Below, piece by piece: positions 21,815 to 50,015 of a stretch of DNA of 64,000 nucleotides (position 1 is its first letter; each line of letters starts with the position of its first letter). Location of the stretch: NCBI GenBank assembly GCA_030272585.1, contig BSYQ01000007.1, positions 3,166,001 to 3,230,000 on the forward strand, in the 5' to 3' direction. Source of the DNA: Bryopsis sp. KO-2023. Taxonomy: Eukaryota; Chlorophyta; Ulvophyceae; Bryopsidales; Bryopsidaceae. A program made the position numbers and the translations under genes. The notes beneath the pieces were generated by a model. That model did not search any database, was not told the DNA's origin, and was given only the letters and a program-made list of their open reading frames with translations.

Positions 21815-22891
21815 TTTCGCGCTGAAAAATTTCGTGTATTTGGAGTGTGGTGTTTTGCCGGTCACGTTTTATTTGTACCGGAACGCGTTGAAGTTTTGGA
21901 ATCGCCTGATGCAATTGCCGGCGACGCATCCCACGCGGGCGATGCTGTTCTGGTTGCGTGGTCAGCCGGATTCTCGGCGTTCTTGGTGGGTCCAGTTTCG
22001 TGATATGGTGAGACGCTTTGTTCCACAGTTCGATGGGTTTGTGGAGGTGGACGTGGCGACCTGGGCGCTTGCCTATAAGGCAGATATTGTGGGTCAGTTG
22101 CGTTCTCGACATCCGCGTATCGTGGCGTATTACAATCGGTTCAAACCGACGTTTTGTTACACGAAGGCGCTGTCTTCTTTTACGGATTTGGGTTTGCGTA
22201 CGACTTGGGTGCGTTTTCGGGCTCGTCTTCACGGTTTGGAGATCGATGCTGTGGACTTGAGTGATAGAGACGTGCCTTTGAACGAGAGGTATTGTCCGTT
22301 TTGTTTGGCCGCTGGGGTTTCGACGCCTGAAAACGAGGTGCATTTTCTTTTTGCTTGTCCGCTTTATGTGCGGTTGCGTGTGAACTCGGTCGTGGAAGAG
22401 AGTCGTGGCTCTCTGTTTCGTTTGTTTAATTGTCCGGGGCAGGTTCGTGTGGCTGTTTATATTCGCCGGGCGCTCGCCTTGCGTAGGGAGTGGTTGGACG
22501 CTCGTTCGTAGTGGGCTTGTAGCGACTGGTGGTGTTTGTTTTTCGTTGTTCTGGATGTTTCGTTTGATGGGGAAGTTGGTGTTCTTTGTTGTTTGCTTTG
22601 TTTGTTGGGCGCTCGCTCTGGGTTTCTGAGTTGGAAGCGACCGATTCTTGTGTTTGGTTTTATGTTTTGACGTTTGGGCTCTTTCTTGAGTTTCGATTGG
22701 GGATTTCTGGTTTCAGCGACGTTGGCACTTTTTTGTTTTAGGAGATTTTGTTCATTTAGGAGTTGATTACATTCAGAGGCTTTTGCCTTGCTTCGAACGT
22801 TGGGACACAATTCACTCATGTATGTCGTTGCAACAGGGCGGTTTGCCCTACGCAACTTGTAATTCTGTTTCTGTTTCTGTTTCTGTTTCAG
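21815..22891 (+). mobile_element. LINE1-A, 5'-truncated, (TTTCTG)n tail
   Basis: A 3' LINE1 fragment starts within ORF2 and runs through the stop at 22509-22511, the roughly 350-base 3' UTR, the terminal hairpin and a TCTGTT-type tail (22861-22889). The right flank is minus-strand DIRS ORF3 sequence, the left flank Gypsy integrase. The 5' joint carries three near-copies of a TTTCGCGCTGAAAA word (21790-21830). Confidence 0.85.
21828..22511 (+). pseudogene. LINE1-A ORF2 C-terminal fragment with CCHC finger
   Basis: Open frame matching the last 228 residues or so of LINE1 ORF2: NFVYLECGVLPVTFYLYRN, WVQFRDMVRRF, then a zinc-finger segment CPFCLAAG...EVHFLFACPLY (CX2C-X12-H-X4-C, zf-RVT-like) and the end REWLDARS. 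EN and RT are missing, so no activity is expected. Confidence 0.8.
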
Positions 22892-27725: not shown

Positions 27726-27883
27726 TTCCTGTCCTTTCACGGTTCATCACGCTAGTGACAGCCACTGCAGGGGGTTGTCACGATTGGACTGGGCATTGTG
27801 GGTACCTGTCACACGTTCGCTCAGGGGTGTCGCACCTGTTACACGGGTGTCGCCCTGTAGTACTGTGGTGTGGAACAGGTGTA

Positions 27884-28022
27884 CGCTTGCAGGGTGTAAG
27901 CTTGCAGGGTGTAAGCTTGCAGGGTGTAAGCTTGCAGGGTGTAAGCTTGCAGGGAGTAAGCTTGCAGGGTGTAAGCTTGCAGGGTGTAAGCTTGCACGGT
28001 ATATACTTGCAAGTAAGCTTGC
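27884..28022 (+). repeat. 15-bp tandem repeat in LINE1-C 5' UTR
   Basis: Units of the type GTAAGCTTGCAGGGT, about eight copies with the last ones diverged, each containing a HindIII site. The same array is in LINE1-J (44840-44980), and a variant is in LINE2 (40725-40812, minus). Confidence 0.9.
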
Positions 28023-28196
28023 AGCCGTTTATACTTGCTGAAGTATAAACTTGCTTGGACCGTGGAACGTCATCTGGGGGTGTGGAACTCCATTGCTCTC
28101 GGCTGCAAGGGGTGTAGAACAGGCACGATTGCGTCAGCCAGCTCGTTTATTTTTCGTACGGCTCTACGCCTTTGGCGAAATCGTGAGGGCAGTGAT

Positions 28197-31100
28197 ATGG
28201 GGGATGGACCTGAGGACCAGGGGACCAGTATGGAGGGGGTTCAGCGTCCTAAGCGCCGGGCGGACTCAGACCCCCGAACTGACGCAGCAGCCTGCCCGTC
28301 TATTGACGTGAGGGATCCGGCGTTCACCTTTTTGCATGAGCGCGTTGATGCACAGACTGATTCGGTGCGTGTGATCAAGGACCTCCAGGCGTGTGTTAAA
28401 AAAATGGTGGTTACGCTGATGCGTCTCGATTCGGTTCCGGAGAAACTGGAGTCCATGCAGGAATCGATGATTTCTCGAATCCAGAGCCTGGAGGCTCGTG
28501 TGGAGAAATGTGAAGTTGACCTCGCTCAACGTGTTGTGGCTTTGGAGGCCAAGGTGAAGTCATTTGAGCAGGCTGGCCCTCCTGCGGACGTGCGACGTAC
28601 TATTGGTGGTCTGGAGGATCGCTTGTCTCTTGCAGTTGATTCTATCAGTCAGTTGGAGAAGAAATCGAATCTCCTGTTTGTTGGTGTACCTGATTCGGAG
28701 GCTGAACGGGGTCCTGCCCTGCGCGACACAGTTGTTGGCATCTTGGATCGGCTTCAGGACGAGCTGATGGATTCCTCGACAGAGCGGTATTCCTCTCACG
28801 TCGCGTTCGTGACTCGTCTTGGTCGTTTCCGGGCTGGTGCTCGTCCGCGGCCTCTACTGGTGCGGTTTAAGACCGATCTGATTCCATTGGCGTTGTGGGG
28901 AATGAAGAAGGACATCCGTTTGGCCATCTCTGCCGTTGTTTTGCTTGGGGATTTCAATGGGCATACGGGCACCGAGGTGGACGGGGAGGATGTTGGGTTT
29001 CAGGAGAGATCCAATTGTGATCGCTCTGCTGTTAGTTGGAATGGTCGTCGTCTCTTGTCTTTGTGTCAGGCTGCTGGTGTGCGTATTTTCAATGGCCGTG
29101 TTCGTGGGGATTTGATTGGGGAGTGTACGTTTCGGCAACAGGGTGTTTGGAGTCTTTTGGACTATGTCGTGGGCAGTGAGTCTATTTTGTCGGATTGGGA
29201 CGTTTCTTTGTTTGTGGAGCCCGATCCGCCGTTGCACATTTCGGATCACAGGGCTGTTGTTTTGACTGTTGCGTTTTCTCAGGTGTGGGATCAGGCTGTG
29301 GATCGTGGAAGGTATCGTATGGCGGCACGGGATCAGCAGCGATTGGCTCGGTTTTTGCGATGCAATCGTGATTCTTTGCTTTCAGGAATCGATTCGGGAG
29401 CATCGGTGGATTGTGTTGCTCGTTCGGTTTCGGCTGTGGTGACTACCCAGTTGGTGAAGCGCTCTTCATCTGTTCCAGCTCGGCGCGTTTCTCGGCAGCC
29501 TTGGTATAATCAGGCGTGTATCGATGCTTTGCGTGAGTACCGGCGTGCTTGGAGGGCATATTTGCGGCGACCCGAATCGCCTGATCTGGCTGTTGATGCG
29601 AGGAGATTGAGGAATCGCTATTTTGCTGTTTTGGCTCGAGAGAAGCGTCAGTTCGACCTGGGATATGGTGACTATATGCAGCGCCTCTTCAAGGAGGATT
29701 CCAAACGTTTTCACTCCACTTTGTTTCCGAGGCAGAAGCGTGCTTCTGATGCTGTAACTTTGGACGATTGGCACAAGCACTTTACGGAGTTTTTCGAGGC
29801 CTCCTCTCTTGATACGGATGATCCAGAGCCTCATGTTGATATCAGGAGCGATGTGTTGGGACGTGACGACCTTGTGACGCCTTTTACTGACGTGGAGGTC
29901 AAGCAGGCGGTGAGAAAGTTGAAACTGGGGACGTGTGCTGGTGCGGATTCGTGGACGCCGGCGTTCTTCAAGGGACAGGGGTTGCAGGAGGCTTGGCTTC
30001 CGTTGCTGCTCGCTCTCTTTAATCGATGCCTTCGCGAGAGACGTGTTCCTCGGAGCTGGCTGTTTGGTATGGTGCGCCCCATTTACAAGAACCGTGGACA
30101 TCGTTCGGATCCCATTCGTTATCGTCCGATCATGCTCTGTACGGTGTGGTACAAACTGTTTGTTTATACGTTGATGGAGCGCGTCGCACCTGTGTTGGAC
30201 CCTGTTCGTCATCCCACTCAGGCCGGTTTTCGGAGGGGCTGTGAAACGGTGACTTGGATTTTGCTGGCGTGGGGTCTCATTTTCTGGGCGAAGAAGACTG
30301 GGAACTTGTTGTTTTTGCTGTCGATGGATTTGGCGAAAGCTTACGACAGTGTGCATCACGATCGCTTGTGGTTGCACTTGCGACGTATGGGCCTGCATCC
30401 TTGGCTGATTGAACTTGTGAGGTACATGTATCAGAACTCCTCGGCGGTGGTTAGGGGGACTCGTGGCTGTTCGCGCTCGTTTGAGATGCGCCGTGGTGTG
30501 CGACAAGGCTGCCCTTTCAGTCCTCTGTTGTATACTTGTTACCATGATAACTTTCCTCTTCTCTTGGAGCGACTGGACTTGGAACGAGTTGTTTTTGACC
30601 TGGTGAAGATCGTCGCGATGATCTTTGCGGACGACACTCTGGTGCCTTTGCGTGATGAGGAAGGTGTGCAGGCGGTGGGCGACTTGACGCTTCGGTTTGA
30701 GCAAGACTGGCATATCAAGACGAACCATGAGAAGACGGAGGTGCTTGCGGTGAACCCGGGGTCGCGTACTTCGGTTTCGTTTGGTGGACACGATGTGCCG
30801 TTGCAGCGCACGCTCAAGTATTTGGGTGTGGTGTTTTACGATGGGCCTGGGGACGTCAACGTGTTTCGGGAGCATATTTCAAAGGTGTTGTGTGCGGGCA
30901 ACGTGGCTGTTGGGCGTTTGCGTGCGAGGGCGTTTGAGATCGGTTTGAGGGATCCACGGACTCTGGTGGCTCTCTTCAAGATGTACGTTTTGGGGAAGGT
31001 GCAGTATGCTGCGCCGGTTTGGGTGTTCTTTCTGACTCAGCAGCACAAGCGGGAGCTGAACGATCTGTTGGTGCGTTACCTAAAATCGGTGCTACGTCTT

Positions 31101-31802
31101 CCGACGAGGGCGCTGAAGAATTTCGTGTATTTGGAGTGTGGTGTTTTGCCGGTCACGTTTTATTTGTACCGGAACGCGTTGAAGTTTTGGAATCGCCTGA
31201 TGCAATTGCCGGCGACGCATCCCACGCGGGCGATGCTGTTCTGGTTGCGTGGTCAGCCGGATTCTCGGCGTTCTTGGTGGGTTCAGTTTCGTGATATGGT
31301 GAGACGCTTTGTTCCACAGTTCGATGGGTTTGTGGAGGTGGACGTGGCGACCTGGGCGCGTGCCTATAAGGCAGATATTGTGGGTCAGCTGCGTTCCCGA
31401 CATCCGCGTATCGTGGCGTATTATAATCGGTTCAAACCGACGTTTTGTTACACGAACGCGTTGTCTTCTTTTACGGATTTGGGTTTGCGTACGACTTGGG
31501 TGCGTTTTCGGGCTCGTCTTCACGGTTTGGAGATCGATGCTGTGGACTTGAGTGATAGAGACGTGCCTTTGAACGAGAGGTATTGTCCGTTTTGTTTGGC
31601 CGCTGGGGTTTCGACGCCTGAAAACGAGGTGCATTTTCTTTTTGCTTGTCCGCTTTATGTGCGGTTGCGTGTGAACTCGGTCGTGGAAGAGAGTCGTGGC
31701 TCTCTATTTCGTTTGTTTAATTGTCCGGGGCAGGTTCGTGTGGCTGTTTATATTCGCCGGGCGCTCGCCTTGCGTAGGGAGTGGTTGGACGCTCGTTCGT
31801 AG
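28197..31802 (+). CDS. LINE1-C fused ORF1-ORF2 protein
   Basis: From the ATG at 28197 (MGDGPEDQG) one frame of 1201 codons runs to the normal ORF2 end. Residues 1 to about 245 are ORF1 (coiled coil, then an L1-ORF1-like RRM segment SNLLFVGVPDSE). Near 28932 ORF1 LAISA joins ORF2 VVLLGDFNGHTG in frame, through a deletion of about 843 bases relative to LINE1-J that removes the ORF1 C-terminus, the UAG and the endonuclease N-terminus. EN residues GDFN and SDHR remain, and the whole RT (MDLAKAYDSV, FADD) and CCHC finger are intact. EN activity is unlikely without its first catalytic segments. Confidence 0.85.
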   Translation: MGDGPEDQGTSMEGVQRPKRRADSDPRTDAAACPSIDVRDPAFTFLHERVDAQTDSVRVIKDLQACVKKMVVTLMRLDSVPEKLESMQESMISRIQSLEARVEKCEVDLAQRVVALEAKVKSFEQAGPPADVRRTIGGLEDRLSLAVDSISQLEKKSNLLFVGVPDSEAERGPALRDTVVGILDRLQDELMDSSTERYSSHVAFVTRLGRFRAGARPRPLLVRFKTDLIPLALWGMKKDIRLAISAVVLLGDFNGHTGTEVDGEDVGFQERSNCDRSAVSWNGRRLLSLCQAAGVRIFNGRVRGDLIGECTFRQQGVWSLLDYVVGSESILSDWDVSLFVEPDPPLHISDHRAVVLTVAFSQVWDQAVDRGRYRMAARDQQRLARFLRCNRDSLLSGIDSGASVDCVARSVSAVVTTQLVKRSSSVPARRVSRQPWYNQACIDALREYRRAWRAYLRRPESPDLAVDARRLRNRYFAVLAREKRQFDLGYGDYMQRLFKEDSKRFHSTLFPRQKRASDAVTLDDWHKHFTEFFEASSLDTDDPEPHVDIRSDVLGRDDLVTPFTDVEVKQAVRKLKLGTCAGADSWTPAFFKGQGLQEAWLPLLLALFNRCLRERRVPRSWLFGMVRPIYKNRGHRSDPIRYRPIMLCTVWYKLFVYTLMERVAPVLDPVRHPTQAGFRRGCETVTWILLAWGLIFWAKKTGNLLFLLSMDLAKAYDSVHHDRLWLHLRRMGLHPWLIELVRYMYQNSSAVVRGTRGCSRSFEMRRGVRQGCPFSPLLYTCYHDNFPLLLERLDLERVVFDLVKIVAMIFADDTLVPLRDEEGVQAVGDLTLRFEQDWHIKTNHEKTEVLAVNPGSRTSVSFGGHDVPLQRTLKYLGVVFYDGPGDVNVFREHISKVLCAGNVAVGRLRARAFEIGLRDPRTLVALFKMYVLGKVQYAAPVWVFFLTQQHKRELNDLLVRYLKSVLRLPTRALKNFVYLECGVLPVTFYLYRNALKFWNRLMQLPATHPTRAMLFWLRGQPDSRRSWWVQFRDMVRRFVPQFDGFVEVDVATWARAYKADIVGQLRSRHPRIVAYYNRFKPTFCYTNALSSFTDLGLRTTWVRFRARLHGLEIDAVDLSDRDVPLNERYCPFCLAAGVSTPENEVHFLFACPLYVRLRVNSVVEESRGSLFRLFNCPGQVRVAVYIRRALALRREWLDARS

Positions 31803-33532: not shown

Positions 33533-33688
33533 AGAAACAAGGAAACAAGGAAACAAGGATTACAAGTTGCGTAGGGCAAACCGCCCTGTTGCAACGACAT
33601 AAATGAGTGAATCGTGTCCCAACGTTCGAAGCAAGGCAAAAGCCTCTGAATGTAATCAACTCCTAAATGAACAAAAACTCCTAAAACA
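33533..33688 (-). mobile_element. LINE1-E, 3' tip with (CCTTGTTT)n tail
   Basis: About 155 bases of LINE1 3' UTR plus hairpin in minus orientation. The tail unit differs from other copies (AAACAAGG on the plus strand), a third tail type for the same family. It ends against the LINE2 tail at 33689. Confidence 0.8.
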
Positions 33689-33818
33689 GAAACAGAAACA
33701 GAAACAGAAATTACATGTTGCGAAGGGCCAATCCGCCCTGTTGCAACCACATACAATGTCTCAGCCATGTCCAAAAGTCCACAGAAGATGAAGTCTCCAA
33801 TAAAACCCCAGTACAATC

Positions 33819-39163: not shown

Positions 39164-39387
39164 GAAACCAGAAACCAGAAACCCCCAGACCGTCGACGTA
39201 CCCCCTGACGTGACCGTAACAAAACAGAAAAATCCGAAAACCGTTCATAAAACGCCTCATCCCCAATCTCTTGCAAAAACAAAATATCAACCTGGTCTAA
39301 AACATCTTCGAAAAAACAACCCTTCCAATCAGCCGCCGCCCGGACATTCCAAGTCCCCACCCTCAGGAACACCGAACGGCGGCACCC
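39164..39387 (-). pseudogene. LINE2 ORF2 start (endonuclease), truncated
   Basis: In the same frame as ORF1 and directly after its TAG (39388-39390): FLRVGTWNVRAAADWKG, DQVDILFLQEIGDEAFYERF and RRRSGG, the first catalytic blocks (N of TWN, E of QEIG) of an apurinic-type LINE endonuclease. There is no ATG between the stop and TWN. It is cut at the deletion joint near 39163. Confidence 0.8.
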
Positions 39388-40602
39388 CTAGTTACCACCC
39401 GAGGTGGAAACCAACGCCATAGACGAACCTGGTGGTGGCATGGAAGAAGCGGGAGCCGGCGCAGAATGACGAGCGCGAACAGGGCCATAAACAAGGTCAT
39501 TGAGAGCGCTCTGGTCCATAAAGAGAGAACGCCAACGTGTGTCCTGTGCCAGCAAACCAACGGGCAGTGGTGCACCCGAGACCGGAACCACGAACAATTT
39601 CTCCTCAGCGAAAAAAGCCCGTGATATCCTCGAATTCGCCTTGCGCGACTCATCCCAAGCAAGGTGATGCACAGGCATCAACTCCCGACGCAGTTGAAGC
39701 TGACGCTGAGTCAAGTCCCTCCTGACCACCAACCCAGAAGGAAGGCCGTGACCAGATTGCACCAACATCTTGATGTCCCTACGGCTCTCCCACAGACGTT
39801 CGGCCGCAAGGTCCAACTTGAAGCGCACGAGCACCATTCGTGCACGGCCAGAAGTGGACGATCCCAATCGCGACACAAACGAGACTTGGGAGGACCAAGA
39901 GTCCGTCGTCACTGCAGTCTCGTCCTGTAACTCCCGTTGAAGGTTGTCCAACAAAGTTTTGATCGATTCCCGCAACGCAGGTCCACGTTCCCCAGGGCCT
40001 TCCTCAATGCCCGCAAAGATCAGATTCTTCCGCTTCGACTGTTTGGCCACCTCATCCGCAAGAGAACTCAGGCGGTCATCCAAGGTACCAATGGCCCGTT
40101 TCACCTCTTCCGTAGAGCCAGCATCCGGGGGGGATTGTTCTAATTTGTCGAGACGAGCCTCCAAAGCCTGAAAACGGCTATCAGTAGTGTGCCGCAACTG
40201 ATTGAGATCCGTCACACACTCATTCACCTGCGACGTCAACCGCTCCAGGTTCGCAATACCTCGCACCAGCGAAACCAATACCTTTTGAATCCCCACCAAG
40301 CTCTCACGCAAGTATTCACCATTCAGAGGCCTCGTGGAAACATTGGATTGTAAGAATGCAACATCCTCATCATCCAAACACAAGCCGGAGCGGCTACGGG
40401 GCCGCGGGGTACCCGGTAAGGAACCGCCATCAGCAGCAGGCGCATCAGCAGCCCGACGCTTATCACGTGCGATCCCTTCCATATCGCCAGCAGCTGTCTC
40501 ACGAGATGCACCTTCCAGCGACAGAACAGGCCTGCCACCATGCTGAATGAGAGCCTCACGCACACGACGCTGACCCTCTGAAGCGTCCTGAGATCCGGAC
40601 AT
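39388..40602 (-). CDS. LINE2 ORF1 protein
   Basis: ATG at 40602 (MSGSQDASEGQ), 404 residues, intact. A basic/proline N-terminus with an NLS-like DKRRAAD is followed by a long coiled coil (ESLVGIQKVLVSLVRGIANL, RFQALEARLDKLEQ, IGTLDDRLSSLADEV) and an L1-ORF1-type RRM segment RKNLIFAGIEEGPGERGPAL, then a basic C-terminal domain (RRDLTQRQLQLRRELMPVHHL). Family role: RNA-binding trimer of L1-type LINEs. It aligns along its length with LINE1 ORF1 (45153-46316). Confidence 0.85.
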   Translation of the reverse strand: MSGSQDASEGQRRVREALIQHGGRPVLSLEGASRETAAGDMEGIARDKRRAADAPAADGGSLPGTPRPRSRSGLCLDDEDVAFLQSNVSTRPLNGEYLRESLVGIQKVLVSLVRGIANLERLTSQVNECVTDLNQLRHTTDSRFQALEARLDKLEQSPPDAGSTEEVKRAIGTLDDRLSSLADEVAKQSKRKNLIFAGIEEGPGERGPALRESIKTLLDNLQRELQDETAVTTDSWSSQVSFVSRLGSSTSGRARMVLVRFKLDLAAERLWESRRDIKMLVQSGHGLPSGLVVRRDLTQRQLQLRRELMPVHHLAWDESRKANSRISRAFFAEEKLFVVPVSGAPLPVGLLAQDTRWRSLFMDQSALNDLVYGPVRARHSAPAPASSMPPPGSSMALVSTSGGN

Positions 40603-43997: not shown

Positions 43998-44560
43998 ATT
44001 CTCAGAACGTTTTCCTGATTCTCAGAACGTTTTCCTGATTCTCAGAACGTTTTCCTGATTCTCAGAACGTTTTCCTGATTCTCAGAACGTTTTCCTGATT
44101 CTCAGAACGTTTTCCTGATTCTCAGAACGTTTTCCTGATTCTCAGAACGTTTTCCTGATTCTCAGAACGTTTTCCTGATTCTCAGAACGTTTTCCTGATT
44201 CTCAGAACGTTTTCCTGATTCTCAGAACGTTTTCCTGATTCTCAGAACGTTTTCCTGATTCTCAGAACGTTTTCCTGATTCTCAGAACGTTTTCCTGATT
44301 CTCAGAACGTTTTCCTGATTCTCAGAACGTTTTCCTGATTCTCAGAACGTTTTCCTGATTCTCAGAACGTTTTCCTGATTCTCAGAACGTTTTCCTGATT
44401 CTCAGAACGTTTTCCTGATTCTCAGAACGTTTTCCTGATTCTCAGAACGTTTTCCTGATTCTCAGAACGTTTTCCTGATTCTCAGAACGTTTTCCTGATT
44501 CTCAGAACGTTCTCCTTCGGCTCAGATCGCTTCCCTTAGGCTCTGCTCGCCTCTGGCTCG
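43998..44560 (+). repeat. 20-bp tandem array at the LINE1-J 5' end
   Basis: Unit CTCAGAACGTTTTCCTGATT: 25 identical copies in register from 44001 to 44500, then two or three decayed units (CTCAGAACGTTCTCCTTCGG and onward). The target duplication proves it belongs to the LINE. It resembles promoter monomer arrays of some mammalian L1s in position. LINE1-C lacks it. Confidence 0.95.
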
Positions 44561-44839
44561 CTGTTTTCGCCTTCTCTGGCGCTGATTTCCCTTCTGGATC
44601 ATTCCTTTTTCGCTTGGGCCTGTGGGAGCTGCTGTGGGAGGTGTTGTGCTGTGTTGTGGGATCACTGGGATTCGAGCGCCTGACCTGTCCTTTCACGGTT
44701 CATCACGCTAGTGACAGCCACTGCAGGGGGTTGTCACGATTGGACTGGGCATTGTGGGTACCTGTCACACGTTCGCTCAGGGGTGTCGCACCTGTTACAC
44801 GGGTGTCGCCCTGTAGTACTGTGGTGTGGAACAGGTGTA

Positions 44840-44985
44840 CGCTTGCAGGGTGTAAGCTTGCAGGGTGTAAGCTTGCAGGGTGTAAGCTTGCAGGGTGTAA
44901 GCTTGCAGGGAGTAAGCTTGCAGGGTGTAAGCTTGCAGGGTGTAAGCTTGCACGGTATATACTTGCAAGTAAGCTTGCAGCCGTT
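44840..44985 (+). repeat. 15-bp tandem array in LINE1-J 5' UTR
   Basis: About eight GTAAGCTTGCAGGGT-type units, the last ones diverging to GTATATACTTGCA, 170-300 bases before the ORF1 ATG. Identical in arrangement to LINE1-C. Confidence 0.9.
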
Positions 44986-45152: not shown

Positions 45153-46316
45153 ATGGGGGATGGACCTGAGGACCAGGGGACCAGTATGGAGGGGGTTCAG
45201 CGTCCTAAGCGCCGGGCGGACTCAGACCCCCGAACTGACGCAGCAGCCTGCCCGTCTATTGACGTGAGGGATCCGGCGTTCACCTTTTTGCATGAGCGCG
45301 TTGATGCACAGACTGATTCGGTGCGTGTGATCAAGGACCTCCAGGCGTGTGTTAAAAAAATGGTGGTTACGCTGATGCGTCTCGATTCGGTTCCGGAGAA
45401 ACTGGAGTCCATGCAGGAATCGATGATTTCTCGAATCCAGAGCCTGGAGGCTCGTGTGGAGAAATGTGAAGTTGACCTCGCTCAACGTGTTGTGGCTTTG
45501 GAGGCCAAGGTGAAGTCATTTGAGCAGGCTGGCCCTCCTGCGGACGTGCGACGTACTATTGGTGGTCTGGAGGATCGCTTGTCTCTTGCAGTTGATTCTA
45601 TCAGTCAGTTGGAGAAGAAATCGAATCTCCTGTTTGTTGGTGTACCTGATTCGGAGGCTGAACGGGGTCCTGCCCTGCGCGACACAGTTGTTGGCATCTT
45701 GGATCGGCTTCAGGACGAGCTGATGGATTCCTCGACAGAGCGGTATTCCTCTCACGTCGCGTTCGTGACTCGTCTTGGTCGTTTCCGGGCTGGTGCTCGT
45801 CCGCGGCCTCTACTGGTGCGGTTTAAGACCGATCTGATTCCATTGGCGTTGTGGGGAATGAAGAAGGACATCCGTTTGGCCATCTCTGCTGGCAGCTTGG
45901 CTGGTGTTCCTGCCGGTTTTGGCCTTCGACACGATCTGACGGCTCGTCAGCGAGCGATTCGCCAACAGTTGATGCCGATTCACCAGTTGGCGTTCAAGGA
46001 GAAGGATCGCCCTGACGCTCGTCTTGAGAGGGCGTTCTTCGATGATGAGCGTCTTTTTGTGGTGCCCAAGGTTGGCAGGCCACTCCCGGTCACGATCGAT
46101 GGCCCGGATACCAGGTGGAGGGGTATGTTCGTGGATATGGCGGCTCTGACCGACATTCTTTTTGGGCCTGTGGGTGGACATCATGGTGGTCCTCCTCACC
46201 AGAACGGTTCTGCTCCATCGGGTTCGCGTGCTCATCAGGGACCTGTTGGTTCTGAGTTGGTTCCTTTTTCTCCAGCGCTTCAGATGGGTGGTGATCCCAT
46301 CACGATCGATGAATAG
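45153..46316 (+). CDS. LINE1 ORF1 protein
   Basis: ATG at 45153 (MGDGPEDQG); 387 residues, intact. An N-terminal charged region, then a coiled coil (LESMQESMISRIQSLEARV, LEDRLSLAVDSISQLEKK), an RRM-like segment NLLFVGVPDSEAERGPALRDTV, and a basic C-terminal domain (RHDLTARQRAIRQQLMPIHQL, ERAFFDDERLFVV). This is the layout of L1 ORF1 RNA-binding proteins. Frames starting further upstream use non-ATG codons in the repeat array and are not preferred. The stop is TAG at 46314-46316, in the same frame as ORF2. Confidence 0.88.
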   Translation: MGDGPEDQGTSMEGVQRPKRRADSDPRTDAAACPSIDVRDPAFTFLHERVDAQTDSVRVIKDLQACVKKMVVTLMRLDSVPEKLESMQESMISRIQSLEARVEKCEVDLAQRVVALEAKVKSFEQAGPPADVRRTIGGLEDRLSLAVDSISQLEKKSNLLFVGVPDSEAERGPALRDTVVGILDRLQDELMDSSTERYSSHVAFVTRLGRFRAGARPRPLLVRFKTDLIPLALWGMKKDIRLAISAGSLAGVPAGFGLRHDLTARQRAIRQQLMPIHQLAFKEKDRPDARLERAFFDDERLFVVPKVGRPLPVTIDGPDTRWRGMFVDMAALTDILFGPVGGHHGGPPHQNGSAPSGSRAHQGPVGSELVPFSPALQMGGDPITIDE

Positions 46317-49300
46317 GGGTGCGGCCGACCGATATTCCTTCGTCTCGGAACGTGGAATCTTCGGTCGGCAACTGTGGGGAAGATGGCCTGTTTGATTGAA
46401 TTGCTAGATAGAATCGATGTTTTGGTTTTGCAGGAGATTGGGGATACTGGGTTGCTTTCAAACTTGCCTCATTTTACGGCACATTTTTTGGAGAGGGATG
46501 CACGTAGACGATCGGGGGGGGTGGCTGTCTTGGTCCGCAATACTGTTGAGGCGCACGTTTCTTTTTTGCAAGACGCCTATATTGGTAGTTCTGTGATTGC
46601 TTTTTCTTTGGTTTTTGGTTCGTTTTCTTTGACCGTTTTTGGTGTTTATCTGCCTAGTCCGAGTTCTTCTTACTCCGATCAGAGTGTTTGGGACGATTTG
46701 GAGTCGGCTGTTTTGTCACGTCGTTCTGGAAACGTTGTTTTGCTTGGGGATTTCAATGGGCATACGGGCACCGAGGTGGACGGGGAGGATGTTGGGTTTC
46801 AGGAGAGATCCAATTGTGATCGCTCTGCTGTTAGTTGGAATGGTCGTCGTCTCTTGTCGTTGTGTCAGGCTGCTGGTGTGCGTATTTTCAATGGCCGTGT
46901 TCGTGGGGATTTGATTGGGGAGTGTACGTTTCGGCAACAGGGTGTTTGGAGTCTTTTGGACTATGTCGTGGGCAGTGAGTCTATTTTGTCGGATTGGGAC
47001 GTTTCTTTGTTTGTGGAGCCCGATCCGCCGTTGCACATTTCGGATCACAGGGCTGTTGTTTTGACTGTTGCGTTTTCTCAGGTGTGGGATCAGGCTGTGG
47101 ATCGTGGAAGGTATCGTATGGCGGCACGGGATCAGCAGCGATTGGCTCGGTTTTTGCGATGCAATCGTGATTCTTTGCTTTCAGGAATCGATTCGGGAGC
47201 ATCGGTGGATTGTGTTGCTCGTTCGGTTTCGGCTGTGGTGACTACCCAGTTGGTGAAGCGCTCTTCATCTGTTCCAGCTCGGCGCGTTTCTCGGCAGCCT
47301 TGGTATAATCAGGCGTGTATCGATGCTTTGCGTGAGTACCGGCGTGCTTGGAGGGCATATTTGCGGCGACCCGAATCGCCTGATCTGGCTGTTGATGCGA
47401 GGAGATTGAGGAATCGCTATTTTGCTGTTTTGGCTCGAGAGAAGCGTCAGTTCGACCTGGGATATGGTGACTATATGCAGCGCCTCTTCAAGGAGGATTC
47501 CAAACGTTTTCACTCCACTTTGTTTCCGAGGCAGAAGCGTGCTTCTGATGCTGTAACTTTGGACGATTGGCACAAGCACTTTACGGAGTTTTTCGAGGCC
47601 TCCTCTCTTGATACGGATGATCCAGAGCCTCATGTTGATATCAGGAGCGATGTGTTGGGACGTGACGACCTTGTGACGCCTTTTACTGACGTGGAGGTCA
47701 AGCAGGCGGTGAGAAAGTTGAAACTGGGGACGTGTGCTGGTGCGGATTCGTGGACGCCGGCGTTCTTCAAGGGACAGGGGTTGCAGGAGGCTTGGCTTCC
47801 GTTGCTGCTCGCTCTCTTTAATCGATGCCTTCGCGAGAGACGTGTTCCTCGGAGCTGGCTGTTTGGTATGGTGCGCCCCATTTACAAGAACCGTGGACAT
47901 CGTTCGGATCCCATTCGTTATCGTCCGATCATGCTCTGTACGGTGTGGTACAAACTGTTTGTTTATACGTTGATGGAGCGCGTCGCACCTGTGTTGGACC
48001 CTGTTCGTCATCCCACTCAGGCCGGTTTTCGGAGGGGCTGTGAAACGGTGACTTGGATTTTGCTGGCGTGGGGTCTCATTTTCTGGGCGAAGAAGACTGG
48101 GAACTTGTTGTTTTTGCTGTCGATGGATTTGGCGAAAGCTTACGACAGTGTGCATCACGATCGCTTGTGGTTGCACTTGCGACGTATGGGCCTGCATCCT
48201 TGGCTGATTGAACTTGTGAGGTACATGTATCAGAACTCCTCGGCGGTGGTTAGGGGGACTCGTGGCTGTTCGCGCTCGTTTGAGATGCGCCGTGGTGTGC
48301 GACAAGGCTGCCCTTTCAGTCCTCTGTTGTATACTTGTTACCATGATAACTTTCCTCTTCTCTTGGAGCGACTGGACTTGGAACGAGTTGTTTTTGACCT
48401 GGTGAAGATCGTCGCGATGATCTTTGCGGACGACACTCTGGTGCCTTTGCGTGATGAGGAAGGTGTGCAGGCGGTGGGCGACTTGACGCTTCGGTTTGAG
48501 CAAGACTGGCATATCAAGACGAACCATGAGAAGACGGAGGTGCTTGCGGTGAACCCGGGGTCGCGTACTTCGGTTTCGTTTGGTGGACACGATGTGCCGT
48601 TGCAGCGCACGCTCAAGTATTTGGGTGTGGTGTTTTACGATGGGCCTGGGGACGTCAACGTGTTTCGGGAGCATATTTCAAAGGTGTTGTGTGCGGGCAA
48701 CGTGGCTGTTGGGCGTTTGCGTGCGAGGGCGTTTGAGATCGGTTTGAGGGATCCACGGACTCTGGTGGCTCTCTTCAAGATGTACGTTTTGGGGAAGGTG
48801 CAGTATGCTGCGCCGGTTTGGGTGTTCTTTCTGACTCAGCAGCACAAGCGGGATACAAGGATACAAGGATTACAAGCGGGAGCTGAACGATCTGTTGGTG
48901 CGTTACCTAAAATCGGTGCTACGTCTTCCGACGAGGGCGCTGAAGAATTTCGTGTATTTGGAGTGTGGTGTTTTGCCGGTCACGTTTTATTTGTACCGGA
49001 ACGCGTTGAAGTTTTGGAATCGCCTGATGCAATTGCCGGCGACGCATCCCACGCGGGCGATGCTGTTCTGGTTGCGTGGTCAGCCGGATTCTCGGCGTTC
49101 TTGGTGGGTTCAGTTTCGTGATATGGTGAGACGCTTTGTTCCACAGTTCGATGGGTTTGTGGAGGTGGACGTGGCGACCTGGGCGCGTGCCTATAAGGCA
49201 GATATTGTGGGTCAATTGCGTTCCCGACATCCGCGTATCGTGGCGTATTATAATCGGTTCAAACCGACGTTTTGTTACACGAACGCGTTGTCTTCTTTTA

Positions 49301-49629
49301 CGGATTTGGGTTTGCGTACGACTTGGGTGCGTTTTCGGGCTCGTCTTCACGGTTTGGAGATCGATGCTGTGGACTTGAGTGATAGAGACGTGCCTTTGAA
49401 CGAGAGGTATTGTCCGTTTTGTTTGGCCGCTGGGGTTTCGACGCCTGAAAACGAGGTGCATTTTCTTTTTGCTTGTCCGCTTTATGTGCGGTTGCGTGTG
49501 AACTCGGTCGTGGAAGAGAGTCGTGGCTCTCTATTTCGTTTGTTTAATTGTCCGGGGCAGGTTCGTGTGGCTGTTTATATTCGCCGGGCGCTCGCCTTGC
49601 GTAGGGAGTGGTTGGACGCTCGTTCGTAG
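46317..49629 (+). pseudogene. LINE1-J ORF2 (endonuclease, RT, CCHC), broken by a micro-insertion
   Basis: The frame is open right after the ORF1 TAG; no ATG precedes the first EN block RLGTWNLRS (about 46341-46367), the first being at 46383. EN: TWN, LQEIGD, LLGDFNGHTG, SDHR. RT: WTPAFFKGQG, RPIYKNRG, QAGFRRG, MDLAKAYDSV, GVRQGCPFSPLL, FADD (about 48422-48433), LKYLGV. At 48853-48880 a 19-bp LINE tail plus a 9-bp duplication shifts the frame; the original frame resumes at 48881 and continues through the CCHC finger to REWLDARS. Without that event ORF2 would be about 1094 codons and complete. Confidence 0.88.
48853..48871 (-). mobile_element. 19-bp LINE tail insertion with 9-bp duplication
   Basis: The insert is two-odd units of the CCTTGTAT tail (minus orientation), flanked by ACAAGCGGG at 48844-48852 and 48872-48880; other LINE1 copies have ACAAGCGGG once. 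This looks like target-primed insertion that copied only the tail. Confidence 0.85.
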
Positions 49630-49944: not shown

Positions 49945-49974
49945 GTTGCAACAGGGCGGTTTGCCCTACGCAAC
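49945..49974 (+). other. LINE 3'-terminal hairpin (example in LINE1-J)
   Basis: Outer stem GTTGC/GCAAC (49945-49949 with 49970-49974) and inner stem GGGC/GCCC (49954-49957 with 49963-49966) with a five-base loop, six bases before the tandem tail. It is kept in every LINE1 copy and, with changed loops, in LINE2. Confidence 0.75.
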
Positions 49975-50015
49975 TTGTAATCCTTGTATCCTTGTATCCT
50001 TGGATCTTCAGAGAC

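Follow-up and report, generated by a model that had tools for sequence, protein, structure and literature searches.

How does a long interspersed nuclear element (LINE) make its second protein when no AUG precedes the first conserved motif of that protein? The question is raised by a LINE in a 64,000-nt stretch of the genome of the green alga Bryopsis sp. KO-2023 (contig BSYQ01000007.1, positions 3,166,001 to 3,230,000 of the forward strand; hereafter the window), in which open reading frame 1 (ORF1) ends at a TAG and the same frame then stays open for 934 codons, beginning with the peptide GCGRPIFLRLGTWNLRS and running into the endonuclease of ORF2. A sequence-only reading of the window had described this layout, had placed the first in-frame ATG after the conserved endonuclease motif TWN, and had proposed either stop-codon readthrough or restart at a non-AUG codon. 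We find the layout as described: the first in-frame ATG, at 46383, is the 23rd codon past the stop and lies downstream of TWN. From a comparison of copies and families across the host genome, we consider it likely that programmed readthrough of the stop codon is how ORF2 is expressed in the alga's L1-like LINEs.

ORF2 of the window copy encodes the Pfam domains Exo_endo_phos (E 1.4e-11) and RVT_1 (E 5.8e-26). Near 48.85 kb, a short insertion breaks its frame, and the C-terminal part lies in another frame that ends at TAG 49627-49629. A 1094-codon frame is listed for 8 of the 13 junction-bearing loci of the same family, F1. The sequence-only reading had asked for a comparison of many copies; the TAG and the next 87 nt are identical in all 13 of these loci, window copy included, and because of this identity, and because the arrangement recurs in seven further families, we regard the junction as more than a product of chance or of a decayed copy. 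The features discussed are collected in Table 1.

Table 1. Positions within the window of the LINE features discussed in the text.
Feature	Position	Strand	Remarks
15-bp tandem array before the F1 copy with internal deletion	27878-28011		same array as at 44834..44967
F1 copy with internal deletion	28035..31802	+	single 1255-codon frame, listed from TTG
Second junction in the window, F2 fragment	39335..39390	-	TAG 39390-39388, then homologous hairpin with outer arms 39380-39372 / 39343-39335
15-bp tandem array upstream of ORF1	44834..44967	+	probably 5′ untranslated region
ORF1 of the LINE (F1)	45153..46316	+	387 codons + TAG; starts at ATG 45153; without significant Pfam match
UAG at the ORF1/ORF2 junction	46314..46316	+	GAA before, GGG after; type III-like context
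Spacer GGGTGCG between stop and 9-bp stem	46317..46323	+	7 nt
F1 hairpin	46324..46369	+	outer arms 46324-46332 / 46361-46369 (9 bp); inner arms 46334-46338 / 46354-46358 (5 bp)
ORF2, endonuclease + reverse transcriptase	46317..49629	+	open to 49118; frame changed by the insertion near 48.85 kb

Residues 1-261 of ORF2, used as a protein query against the genome (eukaryotic, 91 Mb in 28 contigs), returned 68 matches, and from this and related searches we inspected 51 loci (L009-L058, L065), distinguishing eight L1-like families (F1-F8), with family names confirmed by nucleotide comparison for ten loci. The junction is present in 35 of the 51 (F1 13, F2 6, F3 1, F4 8, F5 1, F6 2, F7 3, F8 1); the other 16 (L021, L023-L026, L029, L040, L041, L048, L052-L058), which are 5′ truncated or hold a partial ORF2, do not enter the count of junctions. 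In every one of the 35 junctions, ORF1 is parted from the endonuclease by a single in-frame stop, and none has a sense codon in its place, which supports the earlier proposal of readthrough or non-AUG restart. ORF1 and ORF2 share a frame in all eight families, an outcome with a probability of 1.5e-4 at a chance of 1/3 each if the families were independent, although they are related. In an alignment of six families (F1, F2, F3, F5, F6, F7), the others are 53, 35, 31, 25 and 26% identical to F1. The F8 junction comes from a 451-nt piece in which ORF1 is seen as its last 77 codons, and the frame of its ORF2 is that of a 1183-codon match. For F5, a 150-nt DNA query spanning the junction gave ten genome matches, nine of them full length and 100% identical (L039 included) and the tenth truncated.

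The ORF2 proteins have the L1-like order of an APE-type endonuclease followed by a reverse transcriptase, and a profile built from the six families matched human LINE-1 ORF2p (1.6e-63) more strongly than R2 (1.1e-37). The L1-type ORF1 domain, Transposase_22 in Pfam, was not matched at any E value of 10 or below by the ORF1s of F1 and F7, the two scanned, and we therefore call the elements L1-like only. Relatives of the F1 ORF2 were not found in prokaryotic genome contigs or in viral contigs.

We tabulated 11 representative junctions to compare the codons past the stop. In F1-F6, the stretch from the stop to the first endonuclease motif holds no in-frame AUG. The W and N of this motif are codons 13 and 14 past the stop in F1, F2, F4, F5 and F6 and codons 15 and 16 in F3; both residues are invariant in the six-family alignment, which holds neither F4 nor F8. 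F8 has LNCN in the motif's place and, over the part of its sequence retrieved past the stop, no AUG. In F7, the motif lies ~118 codons past the stop and two of the three variants have an in-frame AUG upstream of it, at the 39th or 40th codon. The claim that ORF2 lacks an AUG ahead of its endonuclease motif thus stands for F1-F6 and F8 and fails for these two variants. An ATG upstream of TWN in a different frame would, by the sequence-only reading, have spoken against its interpretation; out-of-frame ATGs do exist near the stop, as at -5 in F1, but none opens the ORF2 frame.

The main rival of readthrough is termination-reinitiation, by which ribosomes would end at the ORF1 stop and restart at a nearby non-AUG codon, with a hairpin aiding the choice of start. 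The LINE SART1 couples stop and restart with the help of a downstream structure (PMC5972666), a stem-loop ~14 nt downstream is described as helping non-AUG starts (PMC3542737), and F7 offers a possible AUG start for ORF2. We nevertheless consider restart unlikely: it could work with ORF2 in any frame, whereas eight of eight families keep ORF2 in the frame of ORF1, and this is our reason for preferring readthrough. Restart would also leave unexplained both the absence of UAA from the junctions and the CUA, CGG and GGG codons past the stop, and a stop overlapping an ORF2-frame AUG, as in SART1, was not found in the 11 tabulated junctions. SART1 and human L1, with its unconventional ORF2 initiation, likewise translate ORF2 in unusual ways from a bicistronic LINE RNA, SART1 by way of a downstream structure, as far as they are described in PMC5972666; the algal elements differ from them in that stop and start do not overlap, in that seven of the eight families lack a usable AUG, and in that both ORFs share a single frame.

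The stops themselves are restricted in context. The junctions read UAG-GGG in F1, F2 and F4, UAG-GAU in F3 and F5, UGA-CUA in F6, UGA-CAG or UGA-CAA in F7, and UGA-CGG in F8, so that UAG is followed by G at all F1-F5 junctions. The sequence-only reading had held that varied stops without a conserved context would speak against its interpretation; the stop does differ between families, but the variation is limited to UAG-G in five and UGA-C in three. UAA is found at none of the eight family junctions, whereas ORF2 ends with UAA in F4, F5 and F6, with UGA in F2 and with UAG in F1 (0 of 8 vs 3 of 5; Fisher one-sided 0.035). Counting F7 as UAA would give 4 of 6 ORF2 ends and a one-sided value of 0.015, although the two F7 loci differ in how ORF2 ends, which makes its real terminus uncertain. 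Because the families are related, we take this contrast as suggestive and not as a strict test.

RNA viruses and retroviruses provide the best-known cases of readthrough, and most of the algal contexts have counterparts there. UAG-G, UAG-GGR and UAG-GGG are type III viral readthrough contexts, represented by gammaretroviruses (UAG-G with a pseudoknot), Tombusviridae (UAG-GGR) and rice stripe necrosis benyvirus (UAG-GGG with a compact stem-loop) (PMC3542737). F1-F5 resemble this type in their UAG-G (GGG in F1, F2 and F4), F1 and, less clearly, F2 in a 3′ structure near the stop (F3, F4 and F5 have no local hairpin), and the elements in having a polymerase as the proposed minor fusion; they differ from it in that the carrier is a LINE and not a virus or a long terminal repeat (LTR) element, and in that the structure is a hairpin with no pseudoknot found. 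UGA-CUA and UGA-CGG are type II contexts, used by alphaviruses, tobraviruses and coltiviruses with a stem-loop usually ~8 nt downstream, and UGAC is leaky (PMC3542737). F6, with UGA-CUA and a long hairpin, and F8, with UGA-CGG, resemble this type, but again the carrier is a LINE, F8 has no local hairpin, and F7 combines a hairpin with UGA-CAR. The latter is absent from the context list of the same review (PMC3542737), where the CARYYA motif is said to be able to act on UGA too; F7 holds the CAR part of that motif alone.

Downstream of the stop, we observed RNA hairpins in four families, with the first paired base of the folds 5-8 nt past the stop in F1, F2, F6 and F7. In a 50-nt window, the F1 fold reaches -24.4 kcal/mol (z -3.74), with 1 of 500 shuffles as stable, and hairpins were likewise found in F2b (z -2.35), F6 (z -3.05) and F7a, F7b and F7c (z -5.03, -3.75 and -3.31). 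The pairing is mostly kept as the sequence changes: all 13 pairs of the F7 stem persist in three variants, two of these pairs being changed on both sides (F7a and F7b are 96% identical overall), and the stem shared by F1 and F2 has 97.6% of cells paired, with four of its 14 pairs changed, two on both sides and two on one. When the partner strand was slid by 1-3 columns, pairing fell to 15-60% in both the F7 and the F1/F2 tests. Between F1 and F2, nucleotide identity peaks, among the 20 windows listed, in the 20-codon window around the stop (44 of 60).

Several measurements, like the AUG of the two F7 variants, weigh against readthrough. At 50 nt, the hairpin of F2 is weak (z -1.22; 60 of 500 shuffles as stable), becoming clearer at 70 nt (z -2.82), and a 111-nt fold around the F1 junction is ordinary (z -0.81). 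Shuffled partners match the covariation in 122 of 500 trials for F7 and in 102 of 500 for F1/F2, each test having three distinct sequences. Local window folds gave no convincing hairpin in F3, F4, F5 or F8, and a scan for H-type pseudoknots, with one representative per family and 60 shuffles, found nothing convincing in these four families either: shuffles scored as well in 4 of 60 cases for F4, 23 for F3 and 48 for F8, and F5 gave no pseudoknot. Elsewhere in that scan, the counts were 6 for F7a, 34 for F2b and 57 for F1, and F6 (0 of 60) owed its score to its long hairpin stem. Synonymous codons past the stop are not enriched for identity between F1 and F2 (5 of 11 identical vs 221 of 511 elsewhere), and without the stop itself the junction window falls to 42 of 60, which another window equals. 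Finally, the LTR retrotransposons Tca2 and SIRE1 likewise have one in-frame stop between two ORFs, and in Tca2 the look-alike junction, a UGA with a putative pseudoknot, was inactive for readthrough when placed alone in yeast (PMC2194720); unlike the algal LINEs, both are LTR elements.

Taken with the shared frame and the restricted contexts, readthrough would work as follows. Most ribosomes would terminate at the UAG that ends ORF1 (UGA in three families) and so yield abundant ORF1 protein, while a few, aided by the leaky stop context, would decode the stop as an amino acid; in F1, F2, F6 and F7, the downstream hairpin may assist this decoding. The product would be a scarce ORF1-ORF2 fusion carrying endonuclease and reverse transcriptase, presumably as the active enzyme, and the readthrough rate would set a gag/pol-like ratio of the two proteins, as in gammaretroviruses.

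A different route to ORF2 would be a separate or spliced transcript, the shared frame being a relic of a once-fused gene. Promoter activity at the Tca2 gag-pol junction offers a precedent (PMC2194720). In the F1 copy of the window that lacks the junction stop, however, the TAG and the first part of the endonuclease were lost in a natural 843-nt (3 × 281) deletion; the lost stretch has no GT at its start and no AG at its end and so does not look spliced. A separate transcript would also meet no AUG for an ORF2 start in seven of the eight families, and an arrangement kept by all eight argues for function and not for a relic. We regard this route as extremely improbable.

We also asked how the host itself treats these codons. 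Its sequence is that of a green-lineage alga, with nuclear rbcS (10 matches, none of them on the contig that carries photosystem reaction-centre genes) and many LHC matches; one LHC exon is nearly identical to chain 7 of PDB 6igz, photosystem I of Bryopsis corticulans (160 of 165 residues; 374 bits, the next best match having 278). UAG as a plain sense codon is unlikely, as long ORFs run without UAG and both UAG and UAA end ORF2s. Against the code with UAG and UAA as glutamine that is reported for related orders speak a host CCT-eta frame of 592 codons that holds no stop and ends in TAA, and the UAA and UAG at LINE ORF2 ends; in its favour could be counted the host exon matches with in-frame stops given below, which are probably introns. 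Bryopsidales are described as using the standard code, with all three stops in published Bryopsis genes (PMC2984419). The host eRF1, which we found exon by exon from matches each below the family cut-off, reads TASNIKNRVNR in its first exon (L079, G000:C14:2429420-2430100) and so has NIKN in the stop-recognition motif, vs NIKSR in all five solved eRF1 sequences listed out of 20 matched; several of these five we take to be one human protein. Its YLCDNKF motif is standard. The first candidate, L078, was dropped as eRF1 since by its features it resembled the paralogue pelota. Where the code is altered, motifs of eRF1, NIKS being one of those mentioned, are typically changed as well (PMC5304391), and the Paramecium eRF1 is given as SIKD (PMC12440015).

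The changed motif is one reason to consider a low general level of UAG (and UGA) decoding as sense in the host, through a suppressor tRNA or a weak release factor, in which case the junction would need no special signal. The reassignment of UAG and UAA in relatives of Bryopsidales (PMC2984419) and the families without local hairpins (F3, F4, F5 and F8) fit such leakiness, as might the in-frame stops of all three kinds that we found in host exon matches (10 of 54 for chaperonin, more than 30 of 107 for LHC), although these are probably introns read through. General leakiness would, on the other hand, make the hairpins and the special 3′ codons superfluous, and ORF2 frames of more than 1000 codons reach their ends without a UAG, the F1 ORF2 itself ending in one; the CCT-eta frame and the three stops of published Bryopsis genes point the same way. 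We judge it very unlikely as a replacement for programmed readthrough. A milder form may be combined with it, which we put forward tentatively and with considerable doubt: host termination would be mildly leaky, tied to the NIKS-to-NIKN change in eRF1, as a surviving half-way state toward the UAG/UAA glutamine codons of the sister orders, and the LINEs would both exploit this state and have been a selective reason to keep it. An ambiguous intermediate in code reassignment has been proposed for the same clade by Cocquyt et al. 2010 (PMC2984419). If this were true, all L1-like families of the host would depend on readthrough, and they would be the first LINEs known to do so.

The surroundings of the window copy show further repeat structure. 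Just upstream of the LINE, 43998-44516 consists of a 20-bp tandem unit in 26 copies with 99% matching, and F1-related 3′ ends (49974-50006, 22863-22889, 33684-33710) carry differing short tandem tails of 8-bp CTTGTATC or 6-bp TTCTGT units, perhaps owing to reverse-transcriptase slippage or target preference. On several chromosomes, the LINEs of F1 and F2 are gathered in a single block some tens of kb long: the window at 27-50 kb, and in G000 at C1 ~5.74-5.77 Mb, C3 ~2.78-2.81, C6 ~3.37-3.39, C7 ~3.19-3.24, C8 ~2.67-2.70 and C14 ~0.55-0.59; F4 and F5 are dispersed. Zepp-type LINEs of green algae are L1-like and centromeric, clustered at one place per chromosome. The likeness of the F1/F2 blocks to them is that of L1-like LINEs clustering in a green alga, by description and not by sequence, and by this analogy the window is perhaps a centromere. 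The window also holds a Ty3-like element. At 1676-1696, its zinc-knuckle gag frame ends at TGA 1694-1696 just past A AAA AAA, and its pol occupies the -1 frame, a layout that -1 ribosomal frameshifting would require.

It has long been asked how bicistronic LINEs come to produce a suitably small quantity of ORF2 protein, and clear answers are few. LINEs with in-frame ORFs may also occur in yeasts. A literature search turned up no LINE using readthrough among its best matches, judged by titles and the starts of abstracts and with most subscription papers outside its reach, and the solutions for ORF2 given in the accessible part of PMC5972666 are the SART1 stop-restart and the unconventional L1 restart, neither of them readthrough. 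The algal junctions would thus be known recoding signals in an element class for which we found no such report. Since eight related families have junctions like several viral readthrough contexts, the question of ORF2 dosage becomes testable in a simple reporter. The finding also bears on stop-codon reassignment, as it would place, in an alga with the standard code, retroelements built around leaky stop contexts alongside a changed stop-recognition motif in eRF1.

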